NCBI GenBank assembly: GCA_016214035.1
Contig: JACRPF010000007.1
Span: 62,001-126,000 of the forward strand
Length of the DNA stretch: 64,000 bases
Direction: 5' to 3'
From: Spirochaetota bacterium
GTDB taxonomy: Bacteria; Spirochaetota; Brachyspiria; Brachyspirales; JACRPF01
In this document: in pieces, positions 2,984-9,013 of the stretch
Position numbering within the stretch: position 1 is the stretch's first letter
Layout: each line of letters starts with the position of its first letter
Position numbers and translations under genes: made by a program
Notes under the pieces: model-generated
Database searches by the model: none
The model's input: the letters and a program-made list of their open reading frames with translations, nothing else
What the model was told of the DNA's origin: nothing

Positions 2984-3050
2984 CGGTTTTAGAGGACAGC
3001 GGGGCATGGTTCGACAGGCTCACCAACAGCCCCGCTGTCCTCTAAAACCG
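2984..3050. repeat. REP-like long inverted repeat (22-bp arms)
   Basis: The arms at 2984-3005 and 3029-3050 are perfect inverted copies (CGGTTTTAGAGGACAGCGGGGC and its complement, given here only as ends of the stem). The 23-nt loop contains GGTTCGACAGGCTCACCAAC. This loop resembles the TTCGACAGGCTCA motif of short palindromic repeats dispersed in many environmental bacterial genomes. A RAYT transposase, the enzyme class linked to REP elements, lies 4 kb away. Confidence 0.6.
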
Positions 3051-3074: not shown

Positions 3075-3215
3075 TCGGGCGGTCGTCCGGGATTTCCGGA
3101 CGGTTGCCCGGAAGCGCCGGGCGATTGCCCGGAGACTCCGGACGACCGGGGAGAAGACCGGGCGATCGTCCGGAAGTCCCGGGCGGTTGCCCGTATGTTC
3201 TGGATGATCGGGGAT
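3075..3215. repeat. Tandem array of about seven 21-bp quasi-palindromic units
   Basis: A 16-bp quasi-palindrome of form CCGGRCGRTYGYCCGG recurs with 5-nt spacers at 3075, 3096, 3117, 3138, 3158, 3179 and 3200. The period is 21 bp, with one 20-bp step at unit 4. The best copies are CCGGGCGATTGCCCGG (3117-3132) and CCGGGCGATCGTCCGG (3158-3173). The outer units are more diverged. Each unit can fold as a hairpin on either strand. Confidence 0.7.
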
Positions 3216-7181: not shown

Positions 7182-7210
7182 ATGGTACTACAAATAATGC
7201 ACTCCCCACA

Positions 7211-7254
7211 CTACACCAGCGCTTTCAATTCCATTATAACTTAATCTGATCTTC
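7211..7254. repeat. Degenerate duplicate of the degT 3' end (left copy)
   Basis: This 44-bp segment matches the 45-bp 3' end of the DegT gene (7910-7954). The first 22 bp are identical and the rest is diverged with a one-base indel. It brackets the RAYT gene on the left, and the RAYT reading frame ends inside it (EDQIKL, versus EDQDTV in DegT). Confidence 0.65.
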
Positions 7255-7845
7255 GATTCCATATCGTATATACCCATCACCATCTTGCGTTCCCATGCGC
7301 TCACACCATCGCCGCGGGTTATCTTCGATGTATTGCCGCACACGATTACATTCATCGTCGTCACGGATGATATGATCGTAAAAGCGCGGTTGCCAGCAGA
7401 ATTCTATTGCATGTATCCGGGCGAATTGCGTAACCGCCGATTTGAATCCGCGGATGATCGACGCGAGATTTTTCGATTGCGGTGAAAATGAATTGACCGC
7501 AACGCCGTGGGTATCGGTAGGCGCGCGATGCGTCGCGCGCCTACCGATACCCACGGCTACATTATTATAGCTGTTTTCACCGATGATGATAATCCCGTGT
7601 ATGTGATCGGGCATCAACACGAATGCATCCAGCGTGATATTCATGTCGGGACGTATAGCCGGCGTTTTATGCCATTCATCCCGTGTAACACTGCCGATAT
7701 CCGACGGAATCATTTTACCATCGACAATCTCGCCGAAATACGGCATTCGCTGTCCGGTGCAGATGGTAACAAAATATGCGCCGGGCTGTGAATAATCGTA
7801 TCCCGCAAGCCGTGCAGAACCGTTTCTGTATTTCCCGTTACTCAC
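7234..7845 (-). CDS. REP-associated tyrosine transposase (RAYT, IS200/Y1-like)
   Basis: A 203-residue Y1 transposase-like protein. It has the N-terminal YDYSQPGAYFVTICT start typical of RAYTs, the HUH motif in MPDHIHGIII, and the C-terminal FYDHIIRDDDE...YIEDNPRRW segment carrying the likely catalytic Tyr. RAYTs are domesticated single-copy transposases that act on REP hairpins. Between the HUH motif and the Tyr region an in-frame 54-bp near-perfect palindrome (7504-7557) encodes GIGRRATHRAPTDT. The gene is bracketed by duplicated degT 3'-end sequence. It appears intact. Confidence 0.85.
   Translation of the reverse strand: MSNGKYRNGSARLAGYDYSQPGAYFVTICTGQRMPYFGEIVDGKMIPSDIGSVTRDEWHKTPAIRPDMNITLDAFVLMPDHIHGIIIIGENSYNNVAVGIGRRATHRAPTDTHGVAVNSFSPQSKNLASIIRGFKSAVTQFARIHAIEFCWQPRFYDHIIRDDDECNRVRQYIEDNPRRWCERMGTQDGDGYIRYGIEDQIKL
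7504..7557. repeat. Perfect 25-bp-arm palindrome inside the RAYT gene
   Basis: The arms at 7504-7528 and 7533-7557 are exact inverted copies with a 4-nt loop (TGCG). The stem centre is GC-rich (GTAGGCGCGCGA). Its length is divisible by three and it leaves the transposase frame open, so it looks like an inserted mobile palindrome tolerated as a protein linker. Confidence 0.75.
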
Positions 7846-7909
7846 CTGTTCAATCCCCGCGCAAACTTCCGCGGATGTATATGTTATTACGTGCTTGAAG
7901 CGCGCCGCC

Positions 7910-9013
7910 CTACACCAGCGCTTTCAATTCCTTTATCACCGTATCCTGATCTTCCTTCGGCATCTCGTTATAGATCGGCAGTGCGAAGATATCCTCGCTC
8001 ACCTTCTCCGAGACCGGCATATCGCCTTTTTTATAGCCGAGATTCGCGAAGCATTCCATGAGGTGCAGCGCCTTCGGATAATATATCGCCGTGGGTATGC
8101 CGTTACGCCCGAGCCCTTCGATGATGGCCGCGCGTTTAGGCGACCGTATGCAGTACTGCGCATACACCGATTCATTGCCTTTGTCGATGACCGGAACAGT
8201 GAGACTGCCCGCTAGTCCGGCGTTGTATATCGCCGCGCGTTTTCTCCGCTCGCTCATGTCGGCGTCGAAACCGTTGAACTTCTCGAGGAGTACCGCGGCC
8301 TGAAGATTGTCGAGCCGCCCCGTCATACCGATGCGCGTGTGATGATATTTCGTCTGTTCGCCGTGATGGCGTATCATCTTCATATCATTGATGAGTTTTT
8401 CATTATCGGTGAACACCATGCCGCCGTCGCCGAAACAGCCGAGCGGCTTTGCGGGAAAGAACGAGGTGACGGCAATGTCGCCGAACGAGCAGGCTTTGCG
8501 TCCGTTCCGCGCCGCACCGAACGCCTGACACGCATCCTCGATGACGAAGAGGTTATGCTTCTTGGCGATAGCGCTTATTTTGTCGTAATCGGCACATTGA
8601 CCGAAGAGGTCTACCGGGATGATGCCGACGGTACTTTTGGTGATGCTTGCTTCTATCTTTGACGCATCGATATTATAGGTCTTCTCGTCAATATCCACGA
8701 AGACCGGTTTCGCGCCGAGGAACGCAACGGCTTCGGCGGTGGCGATGAACGTGAACGCGGGAACGATGACTTCTTTAGTGCGGTTGTCGTTCTCGGGTGA
8801 AAGACCGAGCGCCATGAGCGCAATGAGAAGCCCGTCCATACCCGACGATACGCCGGCCGCATACCGCGAGCCGGAATACTTTGCGAGCGTTTCCTCGAGC
8901 TCGGTGAGTTCGGGGCCGAAGATGAACTGACTCCGCGAGATGACCGATGCTATTCTCGCGTCCATTTTTTCTTTTCGTGCCAGATACCCTGCGTGCAGAT
9001 CCATGAATTTCAT
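7910..9013 (-). CDS. DegT/DnrJ/EryC1/StrS-family PLP aminotransferase
   Basis: A 367-residue fold-type I PLP enzyme of the sugar aminotransferase family. FIFGPELTELEETLAKYSG near the N-terminus, GLDPV-like VPAFTFIATAEAV, DLFGQ, EDACQAFGA and the Schiff-base lysine in SFFPAKPLG (about residue 189) are all visible. It probably transaminates a keto-sugar nucleotide for surface glycan synthesis; the substrate is not predictable. The ATG at 9013 follows an AAGGAAA ribosome site. It lies 12 bp downstream of the STAS gene on the same strand. Confidence 0.92.
   Translation of the reverse strand: MKFMDLHAGYLARKEKMDARIASVISRSQFIFGPELTELEETLAKYSGSRYAAGVSSGMDGLLIALMALGLSPENDNRTKEVIVPAFTFIATAEAVAFLGAKPVFVDIDEKTYNIDASKIEASITKSTVGIIPVDLFGQCADYDKISAIAKKHNLFVIEDACQAFGAARNGRKACSFGDIAVTSFFPAKPLGCFGDGGMVFTDNEKLINDMKMIRHHGEQTKYHHTRIGMTGRLDNLQAAVLLEKFNGFDADMSERRKRAAIYNAGLAGSLTVPVIDKGNESVYAQYCIRSPKRAAIIEGLGRNGIPTAIYYPKALHLMECFANLGYKKGDMPVSEKVSEDIFALPIYNEMPKEDQDTVIKELKALV

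Follow-up and report, generated by a model that had tools for sequence, protein, structure and literature searches.

A REP-type palindrome lies in frame between the HUH and tyrosine motifs of a RAYT-like transposase gene

The 64,000-nucleotide stretch of Spirochaetota DNA analysed here (the window) contains at positions 7504-7557 a perfect palindrome that is of REP type and belongs to a small family private to its genome. Very probably, this is a REP-type hairpin with a double-foot GTAG...CTAC core, set without a frameshift into the flexible linker that joins the HUH strand to the tyrosine helix of a TnpA_REP-like gene, as published for subclass 2.4. Its 25-bp arms (7504-7528 and 7533-7557) are 100% complementary and enclose a 4-nt loop, and its 54 nt make up exactly 18 in-frame codons, A97-G114 (AVGIGRRATHRAPTDTHG), placed between HUH (residues 81-83) and Tyr172, just as the first-pass annotation had described. 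The 28-nt core at 7517-7544 (GTAGGCGCGCGA TGCG TCGCGCGCCTAC, with an AGGCGCG stem) is flanked by a 13-bp, site-specific outer arm at 7504-7516 and its complementary copy at 7545-7557. No second repeat in the window's inverted-repeat listing combines arms of at least 25 bp with 100% complementarity. Further strong inverted repeats are located at 2984-3050 and 3080-3193, and the former has GAGGACAGCGGGGC in common with a palindrome at another locus of the study (L109, 12979-13028), which hints at another dispersed palindrome family.

A chance origin of the 25-bp arms was ruled out. When the transposase gene was recoded synonymously 5000 times the longest arm obtained was 14 bp, and permutation of codons within the gene, repeated 3000 times, gave arms of at most 11 bp. 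As neither procedure approached the observed length, the palindrome is not explained by the protein sequence or by codon usage. Folding of 7504-7557 yielded one clean hairpin both as single-stranded DNA (-38.7 kcal/mol, z -10.3) and as RNA (-57.6, z -9.0). An Rfam search of the palindrome returned no RNA family at gathering level, and an Rfam family was rejected as the identity of the hairpin.

The palindrome is hosted by an intact minus-strand open reading frame (7234-7845, 203 aa, GTG start) whose product displays the features of TnpA_REP/RAYT proteins, namely H81/H83, W151-Q152, Y172 with NP and a Y1 fold. The HUH motif (H81-I82-H83) is encoded at 7597-7605, and Tyr172 of the YIEDNP motif, which we take from its family role to be the catalytic tyrosine, at 7330-7332, both on the minus strand. 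Across an alignment that took in 61 of the 83 available proteins, H81 and Y172 never vary, and H83, W151 and Q152 are almost as constant. The product matches Pfam PF01797 (Y1_Tnp) with an E value of 0.00058 and 20.4 bits, below that profile's cutoff of 23, and NCBIfam NF047646 (REP_Tyr_transpos) with an E value of 5.5e-17 and 62 bits; since the latter score is below the 80-bit equivalog cutoff, the gene is named RAYT-like here and is not filed as a REP_Tyr_transpos equivalog. The best PDB fold match of the AlphaFold model (mean pLDDT 82.7) is 4er8 (E 8.9e-08), the REP transposase of E. coli in complex with a REP hairpin. The least confident parts of the model (pLDDT below 50) are residues 96-104 and 112-114, which fall in or beside the palindrome-coded segment; this segment is thus predicted to be disordered. 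Direct repeats of 35 bp (7206-7240 and 7905-7939, 89% identity) bracket the gene and are identical over one stretch of 22 nt, whose minus-strand sequence has GTAG as its last letters. One of these repeats is the 3' end of an aminotransferase gene (7910-9013, minus strand), a hint at how the transposase unit arrived just past the aminotransferase stop codon.

The family to which the palindrome belongs was delineated with the stem pattern AGGCGCG(N4-16)CGCGCCT, which detected 19 palindromes genome-wide, 17 of them of the same 24-nt length, compared to none for the reversed-pattern control. It is through these 19 that the element is repeated in its genome, as a REP is expected to be. Among relatives, the pattern occurred once in one genome of the same family, whose own reversed control gave two, and was absent from 29 others. 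The first-pass annotation had proposed searching for dispersed copies of the half-site, and exact copies were rejected: GGTAGGCGCGCGA matches nothing in the genome outside the window palindrome, and allowing one mismatch yielded 10 matches vs 28 in the reversed control, leaving the AGGCGCG palindromes as near copies. A search for GGAAC...GTTCC gave 114 matches vs 47 in its control, the pattern being too loose for a family count. The foot of the family varies (GAAG, GCAG, GTAG, GGAG and others) yet its two copies agree in 17 of 18 members; GTAG itself is present only in the window copy, and the foot of 4 of the 19 is neither GTAG nor an exact GNAG variant (A/C/T). Nearest to the window core is a palindrome that differs from it in both feet and in the loop, and that closes contig C20 (L009) and opens contig C5 (L006), two contigs that may be neighbours. 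At the C20 end its arms reach 40 bp, probably through a fold-back in the assembly.

Three distinct RAYT-like genes were found in this genome, the window gene and those at L012 and L013, and all three contain a palindrome in frame in the HUH-Tyr interval. The gene at L012 has a second palindrome near its 3' end, and the palindrome of L013 has one mismatch and a core of the GAAGGCGCGGATATATATC type. Most members of the AGGCGCG family are nearer to the L013 palindrome than to the window core, and the commonest dispersed core type is likewise matched better by the L013 core. The earlier proposal of a REP-like element in the gene of its own mobiliser therefore stands in part: the element is of REP type and lies in frame in a RAYT-like gene, whereas the half-site is unique, the near copies mostly resemble another gene's palindrome, and matching REP flanks are absent. 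Judged from sequence, the enzyme encoded at 7234-7845 is a candidate mobiliser of its own palindrome. No REP copy flanks the gene and the palindrome has no second copy in the window, so both the REPtron arrangement and cognacy are absent, which counts against our best explanation.

Members of the family also reside in genes of other kinds. One in-frame copy, a 50-bp palindrome, was found in the hsdR gene of contig C12. Altogether, 22 perfect palindromes with arms of at least 14 bp are present in 1.264 Mb, four of them crowded into 3.6 kb inside an hsd restriction operon; this cluster (L140 14075-17644, contig C12) includes the palindrome in hsdR and two in a local RAYT-like gene. Between two sigma-factor-like paralogues, L166 contains a full AGGCGCG palindrome (about 1498-1527) and L118 only its left half, which forms an island of identity with L166 amid poorly conserved sequence. 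This comparison provided no clean empty site, as L118 holds half of the element.

From a scan of genome contigs, the best 80 of 248 relatives were retained; 6 of these 80 frames end ahead of the match end, and palindromes, defined as perfect with an arm of at least 10 and a loop of at most 8, were counted in 77 after exclusion of three frames shorter than 400 nt (L036, L058 and L087). Perfect in-gene palindromes were present in 45 of the 77, as opposed to an average of 0.65 of 77 for codon-shuffled genes, and their density was 1.18 per kb inside the genes vs 0.30 in the flanks. With one mismatch allowed and five further genes added, 60 of 82 carried one. These palindromes recur in homologues from many named phyla, including 6 of 8 same-phylum homologues examined that have one between HUH and Tyr, and they differ in sequence from genome to genome. 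This disagrees with the view, left open by the first-pass annotation, that all homologues might share the linker at the protein level with no palindromic DNA. Positions relative to HUH were distributed as 46 genes with a palindrome in the HUH-Tyr linker, 10 with one upstream of HUH (at the identical offset of -36.3 codons in 7) and 8 with one towards the C-terminus, a gene being able to count twice and L013, which has no standard HUH, being left out. Most homologue palindromes have a GTAG-type foot, and in 31 of GTAG or GTGG type the foot is in phase 0 in 23 and in phase 1 in 8, never in the phase that reads TAG in frame. For 21 of the 45, the internal half-site also turns up in the sequence flanking the same locus, compared to 3.7 expected from other loci. 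One homologue, L063, has tandem QNVETQNA-like peptide repeats before HUH, apparently repeated REP-coded units. A plasmid search added two distant relatives and nothing further.

Linker length was used to assess how much DNA was added. The window gene has 51 residues from H83 to K135, or 33 without the palindrome's 18, and of 27 homologues in the alignment whose linker is palindrome-free, 13 have a length of exactly 32 (range 27-57), so that the window gene shows a gain of 19 residues over the commonest value. As the 33-residue remainder is so close to that value, almost all of the palindrome appears to be added DNA, and an ordinary coding linker was rejected on this comparison. For the hsdR copy, 17 extra residues (51 nt, close to the length of its palindrome) are missing in 28 aligned homologues (of 29 fetched loci; L197 failed the length filter). 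The linker of L012, by comparison, is 42 residues, only 10 over 32 despite a 62-bp palindrome. With a gain so much shorter than the palindrome, the latter occupies former linker DNA in part, and simple whole insertion fails to account for every copy; this, together with the 32 of 77 homologues that have no perfect palindrome with an arm of at least 10, also counts against our best explanation.

Beyond the core, the outer arms differ in sequence between family members and are perfectly complementary within each. For 18 of the 19 members, with the contig-end palindrome left out, complementarity extends past the 4-nt foot by an average of 4.33 bp, compared to 0.60 when each left flank was matched with a right flank from a different member; 2000 such shuffles never gave more than 1.5. 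The longest outer arm, 13 bp, is that of the window copy, contig-end case aside. Footed palindromes in the loci of other genomes have a raw mean extension of 0.96 over 47. We tentatively suggest, at somewhat less than even confidence, that REP-type palindromes in this genome grow outward, the double-foot core being extended by complementary copies of its flanks as template switching recurs, inside genes as well; if so, the window copy would be the family's longest such extension outside the contig-end case. This is favoured over a rival that we consider possible and somewhat less probable, in which the core, arriving later than the outer arms, inserted into a pre-existing hairpin, such as an older REP or a terminator. 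This rival is consistent with the A-runs and T-runs that give the outer arms of L169, L179 and L180 a terminator-like look, with the REP dimers inside longer palindromes described by Di Nocera et al. 2013 (PMC3733652) and with the L012 linker gain, which approximates the core alone. However, the hsdR copy gained more than a 28-nt core, which indicates that its outer arms are mostly added DNA, and the gain in the window gene approximates the entire 54-bp palindrome. A literature search with limited coverage of subscription journals located no account of site-specific outer arms on REPs, which is weak evidence of absence. Such arms offer a way to test how bacterial genomes acquire perfect palindromes and keep them perfect.

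The simplest account of the data is a REP-type insertion into a tolerant loop that was filtered for frame and absence of a stop and then kept perfect. The REP-type palindrome of the genome-private family would have come in as a hairpin of single-stranded DNA on which a Y1 nuclease of this sort had acted. Its persistence is plausibly due to tolerance, as it encodes a predicted disordered surface loop, keeps the frame and stays out of the one phase that would turn GTAG into a stop. At replication, template switching from one arm to the other would then keep them identical, and may have lengthened them into the flanks. Such switching between inverted repeats is described as creating and repairing perfect hairpins (PMC8794818), and mutations that extend arm identity are among those reported in PMC3820800; it is from known hairpin creation and repair that we infer arm lengthening here. 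More speculatively, the hairpin in the mRNA may lower transposase expression.

That the hairpin is instead kept by selection for a function, for example one in which the transposase mRNA regulates itself or the enzyme binds in cis a copy of its own substrate, seems unlikely. Its strong RNA fold and the recurrence of in-gene palindromes across phyla would agree with a function, as would paired changes at the fixed upstream site. There, 90.3% of cells are paired in seven homologues (six distinct sequences), and both partners have changed in 4 of 12 stem pairs; the covariation score of 0.311 was reached by 0 of 500 shuffles (mean 0.160), slid controls being far lower. These compensatory changes support pairing and do not prove it, as related sequences can exceed such shuffles; they fit the earlier suggestion that the palindrome is either recent or actively corrected. 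On the other hand, many homologues lack a perfect palindrome, its position varies between the linker, about 36 codons before HUH and the C-terminus, and REPs are found in unrelated genes such as hsdR. An assembly fold-back is highly improbable for the window copy, as this copy lies well within a contig of 273 kb, keeps the reading frame at either end and is bounded by unique flanks, unlike the family palindrome at the C20 and C5 ends, and the two other RAYT-like genes of the genome carry different palindromes in the same protein region.

Palindromic DNA lying in frame within genes is also known from the Rickettsia palindromic elements (RPE), a likeness to the present case. Those elements are tagged by CGTC rather than by the GTAG found here, and the authors of PMC3733652, where they are cited, found no dedicated transposase gene for them. 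GTAG REPs are short GTAG-tagged palindromes, some of which are coding inside genes (Di Nocera et al. 2013, PMC3733652); passages there on intragenic cases concern repair and replication genes, and the host here is a transposase gene. The closest likeness is to subclass 2.4, which corresponds to Bertels group 4 in a table of Quentin et al. 2018 (PMC6006769). According to that account, REPs are uniquely inserted within tnpA_REP genes in this subclass, in frame and generally between HuH and Y; they are of double-foot type, GT[AG]G...C[TC]AC, and the variable insert is described as lying peripheral to the active site. The window gene shares the in-frame REP-type insert between HuH and Y and the double foot. 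It differs in the absence of flanking REP copies, in a palindrome of 54 bp with 13-bp outer arms vs 28-30 bp in most homologues, and in the HuH and Y motifs, its series being DHIH, WQ and YIEDNP compared to the NH[IFV]H, WQ and YIxNNP given for the subclass (PMC6006769). With two motifs differing slightly and flanking REPs absent, membership is a likeness drawn from sequence and is not proven. A palindrome inside a transposase gene is thus a habit already described for subclass 2.4, and what is less familiar in this genome is arms of unusual length that vary between sites. To this known, little-studied habit, our analysis adds a genome with three different RAYT-like genes, each bearing a palindrome, and quantifies the habit at 45 of 77 homologues drawn from the best 80 of 248, with the internal palindrome tied to REPs flanking the same gene in 21 of those 45.
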